Assembly (NCBI RefSeq): GCF_024171995.1
Contig: NZ_JAMTCT010000001.1
Location: 124,001 to 188,000, forward strand
Source of the DNA: Promicromonospora umidemergens
Lineage (GTDB): Bacteria > Actinomycetota > Actinomycetes > Actinomycetales > Cellulomonadaceae
Length of the DNA stretch: 64,000 nt
Reading direction: 5' to 3'
Part shown: one piece after another, positions 49,211 through 59,149 of the stretch
Position numbering within the stretch: position 1 is the stretch's first letter
Layout of the letters: the number at the start of each line of letters is the position of its first letter
The notes under the pieces: generated by a model
What the model saw: the letters and a program-made list of their open reading frames with translations, nothing else
What the model was told of the DNA's origin: nothing
The model's database searches: none
Made by a program: the position numbers and the translations under genes

Positions 49211-49639
49211 GTGTTGACACGCTCTCTCGTGATCGGAACGGTCACGATCGTGGGGTTCCTGGTGCTTGTCGCGACCACTGAGCTCTTCTATTTCGGACCC
49301 CCCGATGGCGCCCAGAACGGCGGCGAGGTCTTCGCCTCGCTCGGTGGTGCGGCCCTCACGCTGCTCACCTGGGCCGGCGTCGGCTGGTGCGTCGCGCGGA
49401 CAGCGCGAGCCCTGCGCCTGACCCGCTTCTCGGTGCTCGTCGGCATGGTCGGGCCGGTGGCGGCGATCGTCGCCTTCGCCGTGACGATCGACCTGGACGG
49501 CTGGGCCACCGGGTTCGGTGCGCTGTCGTTCGCCGCGGCGTCGGCCGGCGTGCTGGCGACGCTCCGACGTCGGCGTCCCGCCCAGGCCGGCGCGGTGTCC
49601 AGCCCGGAGAGCCACCCTGCGATCCAGCTGCCCGCCTAG
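49211..49639 (+). CDS. Small integral membrane protein of unknown function
   Basis: A 142-residue protein from a GTG with GGAGG ahead. It has four hydrophobic segments: TVTIVGFLVLVATTELFYFG, ASLGGAALTLLTWAGVGWCV, FSVLVGMVGPVAAIVAFAVT and FGALSFAAASAGVLATL. The loop after helix 1 and the tail (AQAGAVSSPESHPAIQLPA) are polar. No family was recognised. It lies between pntB and the convergent condensation-fold gene. Confidence 0.7.
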   Translation: MLTRSLVIGTVTIVGFLVLVATTELFYFGPPDGAQNGGEVFASLGGAALTLLTWAGVGWCVARTARALRLTRFSVLVGMVGPVAAIVAFAVTIDLDGWATGFGALSFAAASAGVLATLRRRRPAQAGAVSSPESHPAIQLPA

Positions 49640-49669: not shown

Positions 49670-51124
49670 TTACCAGAAGCGGGTCGGGAGGGCGTAGCGG
49701 GCGTACACGGCCTCCACCGCCGCCCGTACCTGACCGGGCTCGCCGAGCCGTTCGTCGTCCAGCCCGAGCACCACGAGCGTCGCCACGCCGTCGTGCTCCG
49801 ACCACCAGGAGTCCAGGCCGCCGCGCATCTGACGCAGCCGCCCGCGGGTCAGGCTCTGCGTGACGCCCCGCATCAGCACGCTGGAGGCTGGCACGCCCAG
49901 CGGCGCCGCGAAGGTCGCTGGCAGCCTGCCCAGGTTCGAGGCCAGGCACAGCGGTGCGGTGGCATCGCGCGCGGCGTGCCTGGCGACGGCGTCGGGCACC
50001 ATCTGCAGGAGGGGCTTCAGCGGGCCGAGCGCGTCCACCCGCGTGCCGGACGCCAGGCCCCGGAACGCGGCCGCGACACCGGCCCGGATCTGCCCCATGT
50101 CGGCCACCGCCCCGGCCCGCTCCGGTGCCGGTGTCACCGTGGTGTCGACGGCGACGGAGACGCCGGACGTCGCGTTGGACCGTAGGTCGTCCTTGCCGCG
50201 GAGGCTGACGGGCACGGAGACGCGCACCGGCATGCCGGCCGTCGCGGCGCCGGCGGCGAGCAGGATCTCCGTGCACACCGCGATCAGGAGGCTGTTCGCC
50301 GTACCGCCGGCCGCGTGGGCCGCACGGTGCCAGGTGGAGGCATCGGTGTCGACCACGACGACCGGAGGGTTGGCCGGCTGCGCGTCGTCGGTGCGGGCGG
50401 CCGGCCGGGGCCGGTCCGCCGACTGCTGCGCCAGCACCGGCGGCACCGGGCCCTGCCGGGCCGCGTGCCGCAGACCAGCGACGGCCGCGCGGGCCTGGCC
50501 GGTGGCGTCGCGCAGGTCGGCCACCAGCCCGGTGCGGATACGTTCGTCCTCCCTCGGCAGGCGGCGGGTGCCGGACGCCGAGGCGAACACCCCGGCGTCG
50601 TCCGCCCTGAACCCCGCGGCGGCGACGGCGGCCTGGAGCGCGCCCACGTGCATCCCGCCGTCGGCCACCACGTGCGACGTCACGTAGCTGAGCACGCTTC
50701 TGCCGCTCACCGTCGGCGCCGCCGCGAGGGCCCAGGTGGGGCCGTGCTCCGGGTCCAGGTTCGCCTGGGCCTGCCGGTCCGCCCAGGTGAGCACCGCGTC
50801 GTCACGCACGGGGGTGGACTCGACCAGCGGGTCGAGCGACATGCTGGAGAGGGACCAGCGGTCCCGGGCGCCTGGAAGGCGGCCCGGCCGGACCACGCGC
50901 TGCAGCGGCCCGTCCGCGAGGGCGCGGTGCAGCGCGCGCACGGCGTCGGCGTCCAGCGGTGCGGGCAGCCGCCAGACGGTCTGGTTCACCACCGCGACCC
51001 CGAGCACGCGCCGGGTGCGCAGAAAGAGGTCGTCGTCATAGGTGAGGCGGTTGCTGGCCGCGGGGTCGCTGGTGGTCGCTGGGCTGGTCACGGGGCCTCC
51101 GGTGCGGGGAAGGGTGGCGGTCAC
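49670..51124 (-). CDS. Stand-alone condensation-fold acyltransferase, type 1 (protein P1)
   Basis: A 484-residue protein from a GTG that overlaps the preceding gene's stop (GTGA). The active-site motif H151-VVA-D155-G (SHVVADGG) is the HxxxD of the condensation/chloramphenicol-acetyltransferase superfamily, at the expected place near the end of the first half-domain. The second half shows ANSLLIAVCTEILLAAG, MPVRVSVPVSLRGKDDLRSN and LCLASNLGRLP, like PapA5/WS-DGAT-type acyltransferases. It is a paralogue of the next gene (YDDDLFLRTRR against FADDMFLRRHD). No carrier or adenylation domain. The substrate is unknown. Confidence 0.75.
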   Translation of the reverse strand: MTATLPRTGGPVTSPATTSDPAASNRLTYDDDLFLRTRRVLGVAVVNQTVWRLPAPLDADAVRALHRALADGPLQRVVRPGRLPGARDRWSLSSMSLDPLVESTPVRDDAVLTWADRQAQANLDPEHGPTWALAAAPTVSGRSVLSYVTSHVVADGGMHVGALQAAVAAAGFRADDAGVFASASGTRRLPREDERIRTGLVADLRDATGQARAAVAGLRHAARQGPVPPVLAQQSADRPRPAARTDDAQPANPPVVVVDTDASTWHRAAHAAGGTANSLLIAVCTEILLAAGAATAGMPVRVSVPVSLRGKDDLRSNATSGVSVAVDTTVTPAPERAGAVADMGQIRAGVAAAFRGLASGTRVDALGPLKPLLQMVPDAVARHAARDATAPLCLASNLGRLPATFAAPLGVPASSVLMRGVTQSLTRGRLRQMRGGLDSWWSEHDGVATLVVLGLDDERLGEPGQVRAAVEAVYARYALPTRFW

Positions 51125-52584
51125 CAGGACACCGCCGGGATCTGCCAGCCGTCCGTCTCGGTGAGCACGAGACGGCGCAAGGTCTCGGCGTCGGGCACCC
51201 GGTCGGGGTCAAGAGCCGCGACGCTGAGCGTCGTCGTCCGGCCCGCGGTGGTGCAGAAGGCGACCAGCCCGCCACCCGCGGCGCGCAGCTCGGCGGCGGA
51301 GGCACCCTGGTAGTGCGACAGGGTGGCGACCGCGCGCACCATGCCGCCCGGCGCCTGCGTGAACCCGTCGGGTGGCGTGCCGAGGTTGGACGCAAGGGCC
51401 GCGGCGACCGGCGGCTGCGGCAGGCGGCTCACGGCCAGGTCGGGCAGCATCTGCACCAGCTCGAGCGGTACGGGAGCCACTCTCGGCTCGGCCCCGACGG
51501 CCGTGTACGCCTCCTTGGCGGCAGCCCGCACCCAGCCCAGGTCGCGCGCGGCGAGCACGTCGGCAGGGACCGTCACCCGGGCGATCTTGGTGGAGTTGGC
51601 CCGCGGGTCCTCCTCGCCGCGCGTGGACACGGGCAGCGCGACGGGCACCGGCTCGCCCGGGAACCGGCCGGTGGCGTGCACGAGCCGGGCGAGGAACGCC
51701 ACGAACCACGTGTTGGGCGTCCCGCCGTGCCCGGCGGCGGCCTGGGCGACCCGGTCGGCAGGGAGCTCGAGGTGCAGCACGGGGGCGCGCCAGCCGACGT
51801 CGTCCGCCGAACCGCGGGCCGAGCCCGCCGGGACCGAGGCTCCGCCCGGCTCGCTGGTCGGGCTCGTCGAGACCAGCGAGGAGGGCTCGACGACCGCGCT
51901 GCGCTCCCGGGCGACCTGCCGCGCTCTGGCCCCCGCCCAGCGCGCGACCGCGCCGGCCTGCGCGGCGGCGTCGGCGGCGTCCGCCAGGAGCGCCCGGGCA
52001 CCGCGTCCGGGCGGCGGCACGACCAGCGGGTCGGCGTGCGTCGAGGCGCGCACGAGGGCGTCGATGAGCGCTGCGCCGTCCGCGACCGCGTGCGCGCAGG
52101 TGAGGGAGACGATCCCGCCGCGGGCGGAGCCCGCGGCGTCCGCGCCCTGCGTCGCCACGTCGGCGGCGGCGAGCCGCCAGGAGCTCCCGTGTGCCGGGTC
52201 GAGCGGGAGGTCGGCCTGCGCCTGGGCCCAGGCCCCGACCGAGCTCTCGGCCACGGCCGCCGTCTGCAGGTCGAGGACGGGCAGGGTGCCGGCGGGCGCC
52301 CAGCAGTGCCGGGCGCCGGGCACCCGGGCGCGCACCACGCGCCGGTGGAGCGACCCGGCGGCGATCCCGTCGGCCAGATCACGCAGGCGGTCGGCGTCGT
52401 ACGGCCCGTCGAGGCGCCACAGCACCTGGTTCACGACAGGGCTGGTCTCTCCGTCGTGCCGGCGCAGGAACATGTCGTCGGCAAACTGCAGCCGTAGTGC
52501 GGGCGGCGGGTTCGGCACGCATTCCTCCGTCTCGGGCGCCCCTGGCCCAGGGGCGGTCATCGTGTTCGGGTGAACATTACCCAT
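51121..52584 (-). CDS. Stand-alone condensation-fold acyltransferase, type 1 (protein P2)
   Basis: A 487-residue protein from ATG 52584 (an ATG at 52560 is also possible). The catalytic motif is H165-AVA-D169-G (CAHAVADG). Shared with P1 are the opening FADDMFLRR, VVNQVLWRLDGPYDADRLRD, and the late VPVALPVSTRGEEDPRANST and ALASNLGTPPDGF. An Ala/Gly-rich linker around residues 230-260 is partly encoded by an inverted R repeat (VSTSPTS). It is the first gene of the leftward pair, sharing a 111-base promoter region with the rightward trio. The substrate is unknown. Confidence 0.75.
   Translation of the reverse strand: MGNVHPNTMTAPGPGAPETEECVPNPPPALRLQFADDMFLRRHDGETSPVVNQVLWRLDGPYDADRLRDLADGIAAGSLHRRVVRARVPGARHCWAPAGTLPVLDLQTAAVAESSVGAWAQAQADLPLDPAHGSSWRLAAADVATQGADAAGSARGGIVSLTCAHAVADGAALIDALVRASTHADPLVVPPPGRGARALLADAADAAAQAGAVARWAGARARQVARERSAVVEPSSLVSTSPTSEPGGASVPAGSARGSADDVGWRAPVLHLELPADRVAQAAAGHGGTPNTWFVAFLARLVHATGRFPGEPVPVALPVSTRGEEDPRANSTKIARVTVPADVLAARDLGWVRAAAKEAYTAVGAEPRVAPVPLELVQMLPDLAVSRLPQPPVAAALASNLGTPPDGFTQAPGGMVRAVATLSHYQGASAAELRAAGGGLVAFCTTAGRTTTLSVAALDPDRVPDAETLRRLVLTETDGWQIPAVSW
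51851..51879. repeat. Dispersed motif in inverted orientation (R4), within P2
   Basis: TCGCTGGTC (51851-51859) and GACCAGCGA (51871-51879) pair exactly around GGGCTCGTCGA. The core (51856-51874) is the reverse complement of the R motif, and is read in frame as a linker. Confidence 0.6.
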
Positions 52585-52695
52585 GAGACTGACTTTCACC
52601 CGCTGGATCCGATATAAAGGTCGCCGCAAGGGGGCCGCGGAACTCGTTCGACGTCGTGCTGGCGTGCCCACCGATCGATCGAGGGACCCGACCGC
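52585..52695. promoter_or_regulatory. Divergent promoter region of the condensation-fold cluster
   Basis: A 111-base AT-richer gap between P2 and P3. TATAAA at 52613-52618 is a likely -10 for the rightward genes. TAATGT, read leftward at 52578-52573, lies just inside P2, so would serve only if the later start is used. No palindrome large enough for an operator is obvious. Confidence 0.4.
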
Positions 52696-54153
52696 ATGGA
52701 ATACACCGAGCTCGCGGCCTACGACCTGCCTGCGGGGACCGTGACGTCGTGGACGCCGCGCGCCGACGCCGGGCGCTGGCAGCAGGACCCACGGGACCTG
52801 TCGCCCGGGCACGAGGCGCACCTGCGCGACTCCGAGCCGGGTTCCTGGATCGGGTCCGTGCTGCGCGTGCCCGGCCCGTACGAGCCGGAGCCGCTGCGCC
52901 GCGCGATCCACGCCTGGATGTGCCGCCACGAGGTGCTGCGCACCACGGTCACGCGCGACGCGGGCCAGGGCTGGCGGCGGGTGACGGCTCCCGCCGAGGC
53001 CGTCGCCGTCCGGGACCTGGTCGTCGGCGACCTGACGGCCGGCCAGGTGACGGCCCTGCTGCCGAGCCTGCTCGCCGACGTCTCACCCCCCGCCTGGCCG
53101 CACTGCGTCCTGGCGAGCGTCGAGCCGGTCGGCGCCGGGCCGGAGCGCGCCGACCACTTCGTGCTCGCGTTCGGCGCCGACCACTCGGTGATGGACGCCT
53201 ACTCCCAGCTCCTCTGGTTCGAGGAGATCGTCTCGCTGTACGACGCCGCCCGCCAGGGCGTGGCAGACGCCGAGCTGCGTGCGCTGGAGGTCGGCTCGCA
53301 CGTGGACTTCTCGGCCGAGGACCGCAAGCTCGCGATGACGCTCGCCGCCGACGGCGAGCCCGTGCGCCGCTGGCTCGACTTCCTCGGGCCGGACGCGGCA
53401 TTTCCCCGCTACGGGACGGACGGCGTCACCCGTCCCGCCGCCGACGCCGGCGAGGCGAGCCGCCCGCAGGCGTCCCGGTCGTCGTGGCTCGCCACCGTCG
53501 AGCAGACCGACGACCTGGGCGCCCGCAGCCGGGCCAGCGGTGCCTCCGCCCAGTCCGGGGTCCTGGCCGCGTTCGCGCACGCCGCGCGCCGGGTGCACGG
53601 GCTCGACCGGCTGCGGTTCGTCCTGCCGATGCACACCCGGTACGCGCCGCAGCACGCGGCCGCCGTCGGCTGGTACGTGGGCCTGTGCCCCGTGGACCTC
53701 GACCTCAGCGGCATCGACCCGGTGCTGCGTGACGTCGACGCCGGCCGGGCGCACCCGGCCCGCATGGTCGACGGCAACGCGCTGACCACCACCGTCGAGC
53801 GCGTGCACGCAGCGGTCCTGGCCGGCAAGCCCCTGGTCCGGTACTCGTTCGCGCGGATAGCGGAGCTGGGCGGCATCACCGACAGCCCGCACTTCGCCGT
53901 GTCGTACGTCGACACCCGGTTCGTGCCAGGGGCGGAGCGCTGGAGCACCTGGCAGGCCAGGACCCTGCGCAGCCCCGCGTACGGCACCGACGAGCTCTAC
54001 CTGTGGTTCCTGCGCACCCACGACGGGCTCAACGTCTCCACCCGGTACCCGGACACGCCCGAGGCGCACGCCGCGGTGGACGCGCTGGTCGAGGAGCTGC
54101 GCGGCTGCTTCCAAGCCCTCGGGTCGGACGGCAAGAGGGAGGCGGTCGCATGA
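52696..54153 (+). CDS. Stand-alone condensation-fold acyltransferase, type 2 (protein P3)
   Basis: A 485-residue protein with GAGGGA ahead of its ATG. H163-SVM-D167 (GADHSVMDAYS) is the catalytic motif; the usual following Gly is Ala. The donor-side start YDLPAGTVTSWTP is a short motif shared with P4 and P5. SPGHEAHLRD resembles the opening of NRPS C domains (S-x-x-Q-x-x-L). In the second half are SAQSGVLAAFAHAARRV, RFVLPMHTRYAPQHAAAVGW and SYVDTRFVPGAERW, the last at the position of the DFG-like loop. It overlaps P4 (ATGA). No carrier domain; substrates unknown. Confidence 0.78.
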   Translation: MEYTELAAYDLPAGTVTSWTPRADAGRWQQDPRDLSPGHEAHLRDSEPGSWIGSVLRVPGPYEPEPLRRAIHAWMCRHEVLRTTVTRDAGQGWRRVTAPAEAVAVRDLVVGDLTAGQVTALLPSLLADVSPPAWPHCVLASVEPVGAGPERADHFVLAFGADHSVMDAYSQLLWFEEIVSLYDAARQGVADAELRALEVGSHVDFSAEDRKLAMTLAADGEPVRRWLDFLGPDAAFPRYGTDGVTRPAADAGEASRPQASRSSWLATVEQTDDLGARSRASGASAQSGVLAAFAHAARRVHGLDRLRFVLPMHTRYAPQHAAAVGWYVGLCPVDLDLSGIDPVLRDVDAGRAHPARMVDGNALTTTVERVHAAVLAGKPLVRYSFARIAELGGITDSPHFAVSYVDTRFVPGAERWSTWQARTLRSPAYGTDELYLWFLRTHDGLNVSTRYPDTPEAHAAVDALVEELRGCFQALGSDGKREAVA

Positions 54154-55676
54154 TCCTCGGCGCGATGGGCACCTGGGCCACGCGGCCCGGTCAGGTGCTG
54201 CACGTACGGCCGACGGCGGAGGCGCTCGCCGCGGCGGCGTCGGCCCCGGTGGATCCCGGACCACCGTCGTTCCTCCAGGGTGACCACCTGCGCGCCTTCG
54301 CTGCCCGACGGGCGGCCGACGGGCGGCACCGCGCCTGGACCGGCACCGCGACCCGTCTCGACGGCGTGCTCGACCGACCCGCCCTGGCCCGCGCGCTGAC
54401 CCGGCTGGTCCGGCGGCACGAGGGACTGCGGACCTGGTTCGACGTCGACGCCTGCACCGGGGGCGGCCCACCGGTGCGCCGCCTGGTGCCCGCGGAGGCG
54501 GTCGTCTTCGAGACGGTCGAGGTCCCGGGCTTCTCTCCGGCGCCTGGCCGCTCGTGGGACGGCTGGGTGACCACGCACCTGACCGAGACGTTCGACGCCG
54601 CGTGCCGCCCCGACTCCTGGGCACCGTTCGCCCTCGGGGCCGTGGCCGCCGCCGACGGGTTCGGCCTCTTCTGGGGGTGCGACCACGCGTTCACCGACGG
54701 CGCGTCGCAGCTGATGGTGCTCAGCGAGATCGAGGAGCTGTACGCGGAGGAGCTCCTGCGCCGGTCGGGCGGCTCTCGCGGCTCTCGCGGGTCGAGCCCT
54801 GACCCTGACCACGACGCCGCCGGGTCCTTCCTCGACCACGCGCGAGCCGAGCACACCCTCGCGGCCGCGACCCCCGCGGACGCCCCCGAGATCCGGGCCT
54901 GGGCGGACGCCGTGACCGCGCACGACGGCCGCCTGCCCGGCTTCGCGCTGGACCTCGGGCTGGCGCCGGGCGAGACCGCGCCCGTGCGGATCCGCTCAGC
55001 GACCCTGCTCGACGTCGACGGCCTCGCGCGCCTGGACGAGGTGGCGGCCGCCCACGGTGCGCGCACCACCGGCGCGGTGTTCGCGGGGATCGCGCTCACG
55101 GACGCCCGGCTGACCGGGGCCACCGACTGGTTCGGCGTCACCGTGGTGGGCACGCGCGGGCCCGGGTTCGAGACCACGCAGGGCTGGCTGTGCAACTTCG
55201 CCCCGGTCACGTTCCCGGTGGCCCACTGCGGTGTCCCGGCGTCGTTCACCGACGTCCTGCCCGCTGCGCACGCGGCGTTCCGGCGGGCCAGGAAGGTGGC
55301 CGCCGTCCCGGTGCACGCGGCCCTCGGCATCATGCTGGCGGACGGCGTGCTCGACCCCGCCTCCCTCGGCAGCCCGCAGCTGATCAGCTACCTCGACCTG
55401 CGGCGGTTCCCCGGCGTCGGGCGGCCCGCCTACGACCGGGGACTGCACTTCACCGGGGAGGGCCGTACCGCCAACGCGTCCCTGTGGGTCAACCGCGACC
55501 ACGAGCGGCTGTACGTCGTCACGCAGACCCCGGACACCCCGGCGGCGCAGGCCGCCGTCGACCGCTACATCGCTGAGCTGACCGCCACGTTCCAGGCCGC
55601 GACCGGGGCGTCCCGGCCGGCGGGCCGCACCCGGGACGAACGCCTGGAGGCGAGCGGTGCGGGTCGTCTCGGCTGA
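54150..55676 (+). CDS. Stand-alone condensation-fold acyltransferase, type 2 (protein P4)
   Basis: A 508-residue protein starting in the ATGA overlap with P3. H179-AFT-D183-G (CDHAFTDGAS) is the full catalytic motif. The N-terminal WATRPGQVLHVRP is the motif shared with P3 and P5. LARALTRLVRRHEGLRTWF is a C-domain helix. The second half has TTGAVFAGIALTDARL, FGVTVVGTRGPGFETTQGWL and ISYLDLRRFPGVGRPAYDRG. The tail after residue 490 is polar and overlaps P5 by 20 bases. No carrier domain. Confidence 0.78.
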   Translation: MILGAMGTWATRPGQVLHVRPTAEALAAAASAPVDPGPPSFLQGDHLRAFAARRAADGRHRAWTGTATRLDGVLDRPALARALTRLVRRHEGLRTWFDVDACTGGGPPVRRLVPAEAVVFETVEVPGFSPAPGRSWDGWVTTHLTETFDAACRPDSWAPFALGAVAAADGFGLFWGCDHAFTDGASQLMVLSEIEELYAEELLRRSGGSRGSRGSSPDPDHDAAGSFLDHARAEHTLAAATPADAPEIRAWADAVTAHDGRLPGFALDLGLAPGETAPVRIRSATLLDVDGLARLDEVAAAHGARTTGAVFAGIALTDARLTGATDWFGVTVVGTRGPGFETTQGWLCNFAPVTFPVAHCGVPASFTDVLPAAHAAFRRARKVAAVPVHAALGIMLADGVLDPASLGSPQLISYLDLRRFPGVGRPAYDRGLHFTGEGRTANASLWVNRDHERLYVVTQTPDTPAAQAAVDRYIAELTATFQAATGASRPAGRTRDERLEASGAGRLG

Positions 55677-57135
55677 CCTCTGGGAGCCGGCGCCCGGGCA
55701 GGTGCTCACCTGGGACGTCACCCCAGGGGTCGGCCTGGCGCCGGCCGCCGCACCGATCACCTTCAACCAGCGCAACCACCTGCTCGGTGCTCGGGGCGGC
55801 GAGCCGAGCGTGTGGATCACCGCCGCGTTCGACGTCGACGGCCCGGTCGACCCCGAGGTGCTCGAAACGGCCTTCCGCGAGCTCGTCGCCAGGTGCCCTG
55901 GGCTCGGCGTGGAGGCGGTCCGCGGGCCGCTCGACCGGGCCGGCGGCGTCGGCGGGACCGATCGGGCCGGCGGCATCGGACTGGTGCGGCACGATCCTGC
56001 CCGCCTCGTCTGGCAGCGGCACGACGGCCCGGTCACCCGGACGGTCGAGGACACTCGCGAGCACCTGGTGGCCGAGCTCGGCCGACGGTGCGCCCCCTTC
56101 GGCTACCCGGCGTTCCTGCCTGCGGCGATCAGCCGCCCGGACCGGTCAACGATCGTGCTCGGCATGGATCACCTGCACACGGACGCGTGGTCCACCGCCG
56201 TCGTCGTCGACGACCTGGCGGGGCTGTATACGCAGCGCGCGCGGCGCGGTGCGGCGGATCCCGTCGTCGCGACCGCCGCTCCCGCGGCGGCCGGCCTGGT
56301 CGCCTCCGCTGCTCCGGCGGCGAACGGACCGGCCGGTCCGCCCGCCGAACCAAAGCTCGTGAGCGCCGACGACCCGCGCCTCGCGACCTGGCACGGCTTC
56401 CTTCGCGACCACGGCTGGGCGCTGCCCACGTTCCCTCTCTCGCTCGGTACGCCCGACGGCGAGCGGGTGCCGCAGCGCACCGTCGTGCGGTCCTTGGCCG
56501 ACGCCGCGACCGCGGACGCCGTCGCCGTACGTGCTGCGGCCGCCGGTGCGTCGACGTCGGCCGCCGTGCTGGCCACCTTCGCCCGGGCCGTCGCGGACCT
56601 CGGTGGCCCCACCGTGCTGGAGACCCTCCTACCGGTGCATACCCGTACCGACGAGGCGGCTCGCGGGTCCGTCGGCTGGCACACGACCACGGTCCCGCTG
56701 CGGATCGAGGTGGACACCCCGGTCGAGGTGGGCCCCTGGGCGGCGCCCGATACCCGTGACGGTGCCGGCACCGTCACGGACCTGGCGCTCGCGGCGACCG
56801 GCAAGGCGCTGCGGGCCGCGCGCGAGCTGTCCGCGGTGCCGCTGGAGCAGGTCCTGGGGACGCTGCCGCGCGCGCTGCGGCTCCCGCGGGTGGACATCTT
56901 CCAGGTGTCGTACCTCGACTACCGGCGCCTCCCCGGCCACCCCGCGGCCGCCGGGCGGCGAGCGCACCACGTCTCGGCCGCGACCTGGGCCGACGACCTC
57001 CAGGTCTGGGTGTCGCGCACCGACGACGGCGTGGCGGTGCGGGCCCGCATGCCGCGCACACCGACGGCGGTCGGGACGATCGACGCGCTGCTCGACCGCT
57101 GGGCGGCACGACTGGCGGACTTGGCTCCGGCCTGA
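55657..57135 (+). CDS. Stand-alone condensation-fold acyltransferase, type 2 (protein P5)
   Basis: A 492-residue protein from a GTG, with GGAGG ahead of it inside the end of P4. H172-LHT-D176 (GMDHLHTDAWS) is the catalytic motif; Ala replaces the usual Gly. WEPAPGQVLTWDV is the shared N-terminal motif, and FNQRNHLLGARGG replaces the C-domain opening. An Ala-rich linker (residues about 205-235) joins the halves. SYLDYRRLPGHPAAAGRRAH is the C-terminal loop as in P4. It is the last gene of the rightward trio, followed by a short hairpin. Confidence 0.78.
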   Translation: MRVVSADLWEPAPGQVLTWDVTPGVGLAPAAAPITFNQRNHLLGARGGEPSVWITAAFDVDGPVDPEVLETAFRELVARCPGLGVEAVRGPLDRAGGVGGTDRAGGIGLVRHDPARLVWQRHDGPVTRTVEDTREHLVAELGRRCAPFGYPAFLPAAISRPDRSTIVLGMDHLHTDAWSTAVVVDDLAGLYTQRARRGAADPVVATAAPAAAGLVASAAPAANGPAGPPAEPKLVSADDPRLATWHGFLRDHGWALPTFPLSLGTPDGERVPQRTVVRSLADAATADAVAVRAAAAGASTSAAVLATFARAVADLGGPTVLETLLPVHTRTDEAARGSVGWHTTTVPLRIEVDTPVEVGPWAAPDTRDGAGTVTDLALAATGKALRAARELSAVPLEQVLGTLPRALRLPRVDIFQVSYLDYRRLPGHPAAAGRRAHHVSAATWADDLQVWVSRTDDGVAVRARMPRTPTAVGTIDALLDRWAARLADLAPA

Positions 57136-57151: not shown

Positions 57152-57234
57152 GCGGTTGGACGGCTAGAAAGCTCAAGGCGTCATGGAGGGCGTCGGGGGC
57201 AGCGCTGTTGTCGGCGCCGTCCTACCCTGCCTGC

Positions 57235-57819
57235 ATGGCTTCCGACGACGTCCGCACGCTCACCGAGGCCAGAGCGGTCACCGCCCTGGCCAACCCCGCC
57301 CGTTCCCGCCTGCTCGACTCGCTGACGGCCCAGGGGCCCGCCACGGCGTCGGTGCTCGCCGAGCGCACGGGGCTGGCCATCGGGAGCATCAGCCATCACA
57401 TGCGGACGCTCGCCGCTGCCGGCCTCGTCGAGGAGGCGCCGGAGCTCGCCCGTGACCGGCGGGAACGCTGGTGGCGCCGCGCGGCACGGTCCATCACCTG
57501 GGGCCGGACGACGCTGCCGCGGGACGCCGAGAGCCAGCGCCAGGCCGTGGCGGCCGAGGAGTTCATGCTGGCGCGCCAGGTCGAGCGGGCTCGCACCTGG
57601 CTGGAGCGCCCTGGCGCTACGGACGAGTGGAGCAGGGCCGAGCTCTCCACGGACTCCTGGCTTCGGCTCACCCCCGAGGAGCTGGGCGAGCTCGGTGACG
57701 AGATCAACGAGCTCGTCGGGCGCTGGAAGGAGCGCGGCAGAACCGGCGGTGCGGGGGACGACACGGAGGGACGCGAGCACGTCTTCCTGTTCGCGCGGGC
57801 GTTCCCGTCGCGCCCCTGA
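57235..57819 (+). CDS. ArsR-type winged-helix regulator
   Basis: A 194-residue protein. MASDDVRTLTEARAVTALAN and PARSRLLDSLTAQGPATASV lead into the recognition helix (LAERTGLAIGSISHHMRTLA), typical of the HTH-20/ArsR group. The C-terminal helical part (ERWWRRAARSITWGRTTLPR and ELGELGDEINELVGRWKERG) is found in regulators of MFS pumps. No metal-binding cysteines are present, so an organic ligand is likely. It is cotranscribed with, or adjacent to, an MFS gene 49 bases downstream. Confidence 0.85.
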   Translation: MASDDVRTLTEARAVTALANPARSRLLDSLTAQGPATASVLAERTGLAIGSISHHMRTLAAAGLVEEAPELARDRRERWWRRAARSITWGRTTLPRDAESQRQAVAAEEFMLARQVERARTWLERPGATDEWSRAELSTDSWLRLTPEELGELGDEINELVGRWKERGRTGGAGDDTEGREHVFLFARAFPSRP

Positions 57820-57868: not shown

Positions 57869-59149
57869 ATGACGACGTCGACAGCGCCCTCCCGCAGCAC
57901 CGTGCCCGAGGGCCGGTCCCTCGCCCGCAACCGGCCCTTCGGTCTCCTCTGGCTCGGCGAGGGCGTGAGTGTGGTCGGCAACGCGACAACCTCGACGCTG
58001 CTGCCCCTGCTCGCCGTGACGCAGCTCGACGCCGGACCCGGCTGGATGGGGCTCATCGCGGCCGCAACCTGGCTGCCGTGGCTGGTGATCGGCCTGCCGG
58101 CGGGCGCCTGGGTCGACCGGCTCCCGGCCAGGCAGGTGATGATCATCGCGAACATCGTGTCCGCTGCCGCTCTGGGGAGCCTGCCTGTCGCCTTCGCGCT
58201 CGGGATGCTCACCCTGTCGCACATCGCGGTGGTCGGTCTGGTGGGTGGGACATGCACGGTGTTCTTCCGGACCGCCTACCAGGTGTTCCTGCCCGAGGTG
58301 GTGCGGGCCGACCAGCTCGAGTCCGCGAACGCGCGTCTCTTCGGTACCGAGTCCGCGGCGAACGTGGCCGGTCCCGGCCTGGGCGGCCTCCTTGCCCAGT
58401 GGCTGACGGCGGCGGCCGGGATCGCGCTCGACGCCGTAACCTTCCTCTGGTCTGCCGTATGCCTGTGGCGGATCCGGCTGCCGCGGCCGACGAAGGCGCC
58501 GCAAGGGCTCGCCGAGCCCCTGCTCGCGCGCATCCGGGAGGGTGTGGACCTGGTGCGCAGGGACCGCTACATCCCGTGGCTCGTAGGCATCGGCGGCGTG
58601 TCCAACTTCGGGCTCACCGGGTACGGGGCGCTCGCGGTCCTGTTTCTCGTGCGCGACCTGCACCTGACCGAGGCGGGGGTCGGCGCGGTCCTCGCGGCGT
58701 CAGGTGGTGGCGGCGTCCTTGGCGCAGTCGTCGCCCCGTTCCTGAGCCGGCGCCTCGGGAGCGGGCGGGCCTTCGTCGCCCTGCTGCTGCTCTGCGGTCC
58801 CGCCGCGCTGCTGGTCGGTGCAGGGCTTCCGGGGTGGGGTGCGGCGGTCAGCGCGGCCGGCGGCTTCCTGACCGGCATGTTCGTGGTGGCGGGCAACGTG
58901 ATCCGGAACGCGTGGCGGCTGCGCTACGTGCCGGCCGGGCTGCGCGGTCGGGTGATGACAGTGATGCAGGTGGTGAACTTCGGCACCATGCCGCTGGCCG
59001 GCGTCGTCGCGGGCTGGCTCGGCGGGGCGATCGGCGTCCGCGAGACCATCCTGGTGATGGCGGCCGTCCACTGCCTCGCCTCGTGGACCGTGCTGCTCTC
59101 GCCCATGGCGAGGATGCGCGAGCTGCCGACCGGACCGCTGGGGGGGTAG
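57869..59149 (+). CDS. MFS exporter (enterobactin exporter EntS-like)
   Basis: A 426-residue protein with about 12 membrane helices. NRPFGLLWLGEGVSVVGNAT, LPAGAWVDRLPARQVMIIAN and RTAYQVFLPEVVRADQLESA, NARLFGTESAANVAGPGLGG follow the MFS_3/EntS pattern. Partnered with an ArsR-type regulator, it probably exports a small hydrophobic compound. It lies downstream of the condensation-fold cluster, so product export is possible, but the separate regulator argues for an independent unit. Confidence 0.85.
   Translation: MTTSTAPSRSTVPEGRSLARNRPFGLLWLGEGVSVVGNATTSTLLPLLAVTQLDAGPGWMGLIAAATWLPWLVIGLPAGAWVDRLPARQVMIIANIVSAAALGSLPVAFALGMLTLSHIAVVGLVGGTCTVFFRTAYQVFLPEVVRADQLESANARLFGTESAANVAGPGLGGLLAQWLTAAAGIALDAVTFLWSAVCLWRIRLPRPTKAPQGLAEPLLARIREGVDLVRRDRYIPWLVGIGGVSNFGLTGYGALAVLFLVRDLHLTEAGVGAVLAASGGGGVLGAVVAPFLSRRLGSGRAFVALLLLCGPAALLVGAGLPGWGAAVSAAGGFLTGMFVVAGNVIRNAWRLRYVPAGLRGRVMTVMQVVNFGTMPLAGVVAGWLGGAIGVRETILVMAAVHCLASWTVLLSPMARMRELPTGPLGG

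Follow-up and report, generated by a model that had tools for sequence, protein, structure and literature searches.

A divergent cassette of five acyltransferase genes

Five adjacent genes for stand-alone acyltransferases of the condensation fold, here called P1 to P5, occupy positions 49,670 to 57,135 of a 64,000-nucleotide stretch (the window) of Promicromonospora umidemergens, which corresponds to positions 124001-188000 of contig NZ_JAMTCT010000001.1 in a 6.6-Mb genome. We propose, with moderate confidence, that they form a biosynthetic cassette that has spread horizontally and makes a polyacylated glycolipid without a polyketide synthase (PKS), a product whose nature and substrates we infer. 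PapA enzymes and acyl-sugar loci are already known; not met in the literature searched is a set of five genes from two acyltransferase branches that lacks a PKS and is co-inherited in several actinobacterial families. No description of such a cassette was met in the open-licence literature, in searches that left most subscription journals outside and were not aimed at exactly this gene set.

All five genes are open, encode 484-508 aa without internal stops and have a third-position GC content of 0.90-0.96; the cassette as a whole has a GC content of 0.763, against 0.72 in its flanks. The minus strand carries P1 (49670..51124; H151/D155) and its paralogue P2 (51121..52584; H165/D169), and the plus strand carries the PapA-type genes P3 (52696..54153; H163/D167), P4 (54150..55676; H179/D183) and P5 (55657..57135; H172/D176). 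The original prediction, made from the letters alone, had placed an HxxxD motif at these residues in five consecutive genes, and every one of them was confirmed. It had also described all junctions within the two arms as overlapping, which holds for P3/P4 (an ATGA overlap) and P4/P5 (20 bases), whereas the P2-P1 overlap and the 111-base length of the divergent P2-P3 intergenic region (52585..52695) are valid only with the most upstream starts. Conserved GTG codons at 51091 and 52518 are probably the true starts of P1 and P2, respectively, and give gaps of 29 bases between P2 and P1 and 177 bases between P2 and P3. The shared divergent region itself is well conserved in the eight Promicromonospora sequences aligned (the window and seven congeners).

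Two branches of the condensation superfamily

The HxxxD motif alone is weak evidence, because shuffled proteins reproduced it at residues 140-190 in 119-233 of 2000 cases, and it was rejected as proof of family; the superfamily case therefore rests on profiles, folds and orthologues. In the congener alignments (window included, partial matches excluded), neither residue varies in any of the orthologues retained (P1 9/9, P2 7/7, P3 10/10, P4 10/10 and P5 9/9), and no loss of the motif was found. P3, P4 and P5 score 37.0, 32.7 and 37.5 bits with PF00668, all above its cut-off of 30.6 bits. Their joint profile matches PapA2, the sulfolipid enzyme, over residues 3-461 (E = 4.2e-57; runner-up 7.7e-20). 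P3 as a single sequence also matches PapA2 (E = 7.4e-8). The AlphaFold2 model of P3 (predicted local distance difference test, pLDDT, 76.6; predicted template modelling score, pTM, 0.81) likewise has PapA2 as its first fold match (E = 7.9e-27, TM 0.78), the other 49 matches listed reaching TM ≤0.65. Judged by these profiles and this model, P3-P5 are PapA-type enzymes, resembling PapA2 in fold, HxxxD motif and nearly full-length profile similarity, and they may share its acyl-CoA:trehalose activity. The PGxVxxW motif that the original prediction took to be common to all three occurs in exact form in P5 alone, the corresponding sequences being PAGTVTSW in P3 and PGQVLHV in P4.

P1 and P2, which are 34% identical, form the other type. 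Neither exceeded the cut-off of any Pfam or NCBIfam model in the library scan; PF00668 gave no match to them up to E = 1, and there was no match to PF03007 or to TIGR02946, the NCBIfam model of wax ester synthase/diacylglycerol acyltransferases (WS/DGAT). Their superfamily placement comes from the AlphaFold2 model of P1, built from a 17-row alignment of P1 and P2 orthologues, and P2 follows by its identity to P1. All 50 fold matches listed for P1 are condensation, cyclization or epimerization domains, PapA5, WS/DGAT (6chj among them) or nonribosomal peptide synthetases (NRPS) containing such domains. Hence both the placement of the five proteins in the condensation/chloramphenicol acetyltransferase superfamily and their division into two types held up, although a search with PF00668, as had been suggested, recovers only P3-P5.

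P1/P2 are a separate branch, to which weak signals place WS/DGAT nearest: with hits allowed up to E = 1, their profile finds a single PDB entry, which belongs to WS/DGAT (E = 0.2), and one of their cousins from a probable mycobacterial locus (L130:6779-8152; L denotes loci and G genomes) passes PF03007 just above the cut-off (24.8 vs 23.6 bits). Both points would suit a role of P1/P2 as divergent WS/DGAT enzymes that make wax esters or triacylglycerol, unrelated to P3-P5. However, PF03007 matches neither P1 and P2 nor any of six non-mycobacterial relatives (from L095, L088, L091 and L122), the two branches are co-inherited as one block, and the exporter genes in four loci argue for a secreted product, so that we give a storage-lipid role the smallest probability of all the alternatives considered.

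Phylogenetic trees support the individuality of the five genes. P3, P4 and P5 each form a single clade of 15 rows (support 100/100, 100/100 and 100/99), and P1 is split from P2 (16 and 12 rows; 100/99); the groupings inside these clades are similar. Rows shorter than 380 aa were dropped (two P1, three P2 and one P5 pieces); the Saccharomonospora P1 row, with a branch of about 5, is an out-of-frame artefact, and the tree program warned that long branches meet between the P3, P4 and P5 groups.

Co-inheritance and spread of the cassette

Ten of 12 congeners, two of them with fragmentary assemblies, carry the cassette at one shared site, and in the survey of relatives P1 matches were confined to these (10/12 congeners, 0/46 other genomes). 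Full-length P1 orthologues in congeners are 79-87% identical, and among the nine Promicromonospora loci of a named scan the full-length copies show 77-87% identity to P1. Two congeners are cassette-free and have a clean empty site at which memX and mqo are adjacent, about 240 and 115 bp apart; a housekeeping operon was rejected on this ground.

Outside Promicromonospora, the named scan yielded nine loci, eight of which have P1-P5 in the same divergent order: four from Rhodococcus/Rhodococcoides, two from Saccharopolyspora, one from Saccharomonospora (with P1 and P5 split over frames) and one from Nocardioides. P1 orthologues in Rhodococcus, Saccharopolyspora, Saccharomonospora and Nocardioides are 39-48% identical where one frame covers them. 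The ninth locus, from Williamsia (L098), has a lone P1/P2-type gene and none of P3-P5 in the stretch read. A phylum survey, in which 16 of 396 genomes (own included) had a P1/P2-family match, added three P3-P4-P5 loci: L120, with P1 and a P2 split over two frames; L121, with two P1-type genes; and L122, in which P2 is absent. P3-P4-P5 are therefore present in all 11 cluster loci outside the genus, and all five genes stand in the same divergent order in nine. The neighbourhood survey called for by the original prediction thus shows co-inheritance of the five genes; neither separate inheritance nor, by the profiles and the P1 and P3 folds, a placement outside the superfamily was found. In G289 and G107, the stretch read holds genes of the P1/P2 type but none of P3-P5, and a weak match in G189 was not confirmed. 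A survey of the order with the P1/P2 profile (396 genomes, the four best first-look candidates scored per genome, apparently no congener drawn) returned the own genome and one match of 22.7 bits (G675). Since the complete set is otherwise known only from outside the order, the distribution of homologues makes spread of the cassette by lateral transfer likely.

Four of the 11 loci (L094, L095, L120 and L122) also carry a DrrA-DrrB exporter pair, 52-68% identical to the query copies; the pair was not found in the other seven, in seven congener loci or in positions 40001-64000 of the window. DrrA of L120 exceeds its NCBIfam cut-off, and DrrB of L122 is a family match below the cut-off.

A glycosyltransferase gene lost from the window strain

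In congeners that have the region on a single contig, about 1.3 kb separate P2 from P1. At the place of the window's P2/P1 junction (51085..51125), relatives have a glycosyltransferase gene of ~1.3 kb, encoded on the opposite strand. Within CCGCCA, the window's homology to the end of P2 of congener locus L065 breaks off and that to the start of P1 of L065 sets in. As read from this breakpoint, the gene is lost from the window strain by a clean deletion, and the best copy elsewhere in the genome is 34% identical. The relatives' enzyme is a GT-B glycosyltransferase, the L065 copy scoring 49.2 bits with PF06722 (cut-off 31.7) and 29.9 bits with PF03033 (cut-off 26.2). It is intact in seven congeners, namely L065 (G008) and G002, G004, G005, G006, G010 and G011 (85-92% identical to L065), is a fragment in G009 and was not found in the broken assembly G007. 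The G001 copy is split over two frames (L059 11411-12748), a state that reflects either decay or a sequencing error. Eight of the 11 cluster loci outside the genus have the gene; the two Saccharopolyspora loci and L120 do not.

These losses bear on whether the window cassette is itself decaying and functionless. The deletion, the two-frame G001 copy, the G009 fragments with N gaps and the two cassette-free congeners all suit decay, and L120, which combines absence of the glycosyltransferase with a P2 over two frames, fits it as well. All five window genes are nevertheless open with HxxxD kept, and both Saccharopolyspora loci retain the five genes without the glycosyltransferase, which makes a functionless cassette improbable in our estimate.

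The best PDB matches of the glycosyltransferase are a sterol 3-beta-glucosyltransferase (E = 2.2e-23) and GtfB (1.4e-22), and among NCBIfam models it resembles those of rifamycin and macrolide-type glycosyltransferases, in each case below the cut-off. Such matches would be expected if the enzyme glycosylated a lipid other than a sugar, such as a polyprenol, a hopanoid, a carotenoid or a sterol-like compound, after which up to five acyl groups would be placed on the sugar. We consider this unlikely, though less so than decay: the acyltransferases are retained in strains without the glycosyltransferase, the nearest known relative of P3-P5 is a trehalose acyltransferase, and similar glycosyltransferases (36-43% identical) stand in the loci of four of the nine probable mycobacterial genomes described below.

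Host genome context

In the own genome, PF00668 matches only P3-P5. PF00109 gives one strong match, taken for FabF, and three short ones, taken for thiolases, and PF00501 gives ten matches, none of either family being in the window. The original prediction that partner genes are absent stands for the window as regards these two families (PF00550 was not scanned) and fails for the relatives, which carry the glycosyltransferase and in four cases the DrrAB-type exporter. The same two models, with no PF00109 or PF00501 match in the window, revealed no dedicated PKS or fatty acyl-AMP ligase (FAAL) at the locus, MmpL not having been searched by model.

P1-P5 might alternatively condense or release acyl or peptidyl chains from NRPS or PKS carriers, in the manner of stand-alone condensation domains such as SgcC5, which P3 matches as a single sequence (E = 2.2e-4); the PF00668 matches of P3-P5 would agree with this. 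The genome, however, has no further PF00668 protein, one strong PF00109 match and no AMP-binding gene in the window (ten elsewhere), and in the gene-called non-mycobacterial loci no partner was recognised by eye from N-terminal residues, PF00550 carriers not having been searched. An NRPS-like pathway was rejected on the PF00668, PF00109 and PF00501 results, and we assign only a slight probability to carrier-bound substrates in general. The genome encodes one OtsA, and the host can therefore probably make trehalose.

Probable mycobacterial cousins and known acyl-sugar systems

The phylum survey included nine genomes, all from a single genus (one stretch read per genome, two from G439), with P1-like genes that are 26-32% identical; PPE-, MmpL- and Pks2-like neighbours make Mycobacterium the probable genus. 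A P4-like (PapA-like) gene adjoins the P1-like genes in seven of the nine, and these seven have one or two PapA-like and two to five P1-like genes each; the view that known precedents act singly is accordingly too strong. Window P4 is only 25-31% identical to these PapA-like genes. A large PKS lies upstream in three of five gene-called loci (L128, L130 and L134); that of L134 exceeds the cut-off of the sulfolipid-type Pks2 model, and the other two are 65% and 60% identical to it. The FAAL and MmpL of L130 and the Sap protein of L134, one each tested, also exceed their cut-offs. In L131 (8529-14339), three GT-B genes surround one P1-like gene, with a long condensation-type protein downstream, as judged by eye.

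By resemblance, these loci may be labelled lipooligosaccharide (LOS) loci: they pair PapA-like with P1-like genes, some with a glycosyltransferase, MmpL, Sap, FAAL or Pks2-type PKS, and MSMEG_4729 and MSMEG_4730 of the Mycobacterium smegmatis LOS island are presumably P1-like. The island, MSMEG_4727-4737, includes a mycocerosic acid synthase-like PKS (PMC11139207; papers are cited by PMC number for excerpts of their text), whereas the window cassette has no PKS. In M. marinum, papA4 is required for LOS (PMC5706390).

The cassette shares single features with other known systems. The locus for phthiocerol dimycocerosate combines PapA5 with DrrABC, and four relatives of the window similarly have a condensation-fold acyltransferase beside a DrrAB-type exporter; no phthiocerol PKS genes were recognised, however, and with the PapA5 model NF006787 (cut-off 396 bits) P3 and P4 score far below the cut-off (22.1 and 20.8 bits) and P1, P2 and P5 are unmatched. 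In sulfolipid, a single sugar is acylated more than once. Trehalose polyphleates, the lipids of PapA3, are likewise described as carrying multiple acyl groups on one sugar (PMC10465359). The window differs from such PapA trehalose lipid loci in having no ketosynthase or AMP-ligase gene, and in its three tandem PapA-type genes accompanied by two of the P1/P2 type.

Rhodococcus sp. I2R produces succinoyl di- and trisaccharide lipids, di- to tetraesters with secondary acyl chains; some have a third sugar with hexanoate, positions having been assigned after a glucotriose lipid (PMC8396431). This system (Rhodococcus succinoyl trehalose/glucotriose lipids, TlsA) resembles the proposed one in its multiple acyl groups on a di- or trisaccharide and in its tandem papA genes, which are listed on contig 9 at 137187 (1461 bp), 138665 (1431 bp), 140099 (1404 bp) and 143010 (1488 bp) (PMC8396431). 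We computed from that table a tandem of 1461, 1431 and 1404 bp with gaps of 17 and 3 bp; P3-P4-P5 of L088, at about 1443, 1434 and 1392 bp, are spaced by 16 and 0 bp. It differs in that the excerpt mentions neither P1/P2 nor a glycosyltransferase, and the pathway is unproved there too (PMC8396431). Another Rhodococcus locus has papA3 beside a glycosyltransferase, a different set from the cassette (PMC13206832). Unidentified glycolipids have been reported from Promicromonospora (PMC13274763).

Neighbouring genes and further PapA-like genes

An ArsR-like regulator (57208..57819, plus strand) and a major facilitator superfamily (MFS) transporter of the H+ antiporter type (57869..59149, plus strand) follow P5. 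Both are accessory and were rejected as core parts: of the ten cluster-bearing congeners, four have the two genes (L059, L060, L062 and L066), five have neither (L061, L063, L065, L067 and L168), and L068 has an MFS remnant. L068 (7435-9964; G009) shows fragments of pntA, P2, P1, the glycosyltransferase, P3 and the MFS gene together with 900 N, and is either a gapped scaffold or a broken cassette. On the other side, a small membrane-type protein without Pfam match (window 49211-49639) marks the left edge of the cassette; it is found there in eight of the nine congener loci that reach it (not in the gapped L068) and also at both empty sites.

P3 matched 37 of 396 genomes, with scores >300 bits only in G000, G269, G352, G332 and G342. 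G342 has a P3-like gene adjoining an accA3-like gene, with no cassette in the 20 kb read and no P1/P2 match, and G332 has a fourth P3-like gene after the triplet, ahead of an accA3-like gene. Altogether, such an extra P3-like gene beside an accA3-like gene was seen in three relatives, G342 among them (L170 9631-11013, L173 10120-11547 and L169 3443-4783). This arrangement suggests a separate PapA-type gene at an acyl-CoA carboxylase locus. Two cassette-free genomes of one genus, perhaps Streptomyces, have a stand-alone PapA-like gene (27-31% identical to P3/P4) beside cytochrome c biogenesis-like genes (L171 9285-10772 and L172 9372-10856). With P4 as query, the survey of relatives gave matches outside the genus in G016 (31%, E = 1.8e-12), G031 (E = 1e-4) and G045 (best E = 1e-5, in frames thousands of codons long).

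Proposed pathway and its significance

We favour a polyacylated glycolipid because several acyltransferases fit several hydroxyls, a glycosyltransferase fits a di- to trisaccharide step and DrrAB fits export. The acceptor would be a sugar, most plausibly trehalose, or trehalose with an extra hexose added by the GT-B enzyme where it is kept. The five acyltransferases would esterify it stepwise, each being responsible for one hydroxyl or, alternatively, for the 3-OH group of a hydroxy-acyl chain added earlier. Acyl thioesters would be drawn from primary metabolism rather than from a PKS or NRPS, and the product would then be exported, in some relatives by the DrrAB-type ATP-binding cassette transporter. 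The window strain, after its deletion, is predicted to make a less glycosylated form with a shorter head group. The acceptor, the acyl donors, the order and number of acylations, export and a surface location are all predictions, and what is retained of the combinatorial acylation, esterification or condensation first envisaged is a putative multi-step acylation pathway.

Several observations weigh against this proposal. The known PapA lipids come from mycolate-bearing bacteria, to which Promicromonospora, to our knowledge, does not belong. Sequence profiles link P1/P2 to no named family; the P1 model is weak (pLDDT 52, pTM 0.60), and its fold matches, with a best E of 1.2e-13, reach TM of only 0.40-0.50. 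In the stretches read, the nine probable mycobacterial genomes have P1-like genes but neither P3 nor P5, so that P1/P2 can work in another setting. Absence of the glycosyltransferase from the window, two Saccharopolyspora loci and L120 leaves a sugar acceptor unproved by co-inheritance, and with sterol and glycopeptide glucosyltransferases as the best structural matches the acceptor could be a non-sugar lipid. The trehalose synthesis genes lie outside the cassette. The correspondence of the I2R papA array to P3-P5 is suggestive, being one of size and spacing alone between uncompared sequences.

The genetic basis of Rhodococcus trehalose biosurfactants was called poorly understood in 2021 (PMC8396431). 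We tentatively raise the possibility, in which we place appreciably less confidence than in the polyacylated glycolipid itself, that the mobile cassette represents a new class of actinobacterial pathway to polyacyl glycolipids, independent of PKS and present even in bacteria that lack mycolic acids. In it, five position-specific acyltransferases of two families, one of them undescribed, would esterify a trehalose-type core with acyl-CoAs from primary metabolism, alongside an optional glucosyltransferase and exporter, and the cassette would also be the missing gene set for the Rhodococcus succinoyl-trehalose/glucotriose lipids; if true, this would provide a testable gene set for those biosurfactants. 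P1/P2 would represent a protein family missed by current models that also occurs in probable mycobacterial acyl-sugar loci. Known PapA-type enzymes serve surface lipids of mycobacteria whose synthesis requires large PKS genes, and the cassette, if it acts as proposed, would offer a tractable system in a non-pathogen for how paralogues divide the position-specific acylation of one sugar.

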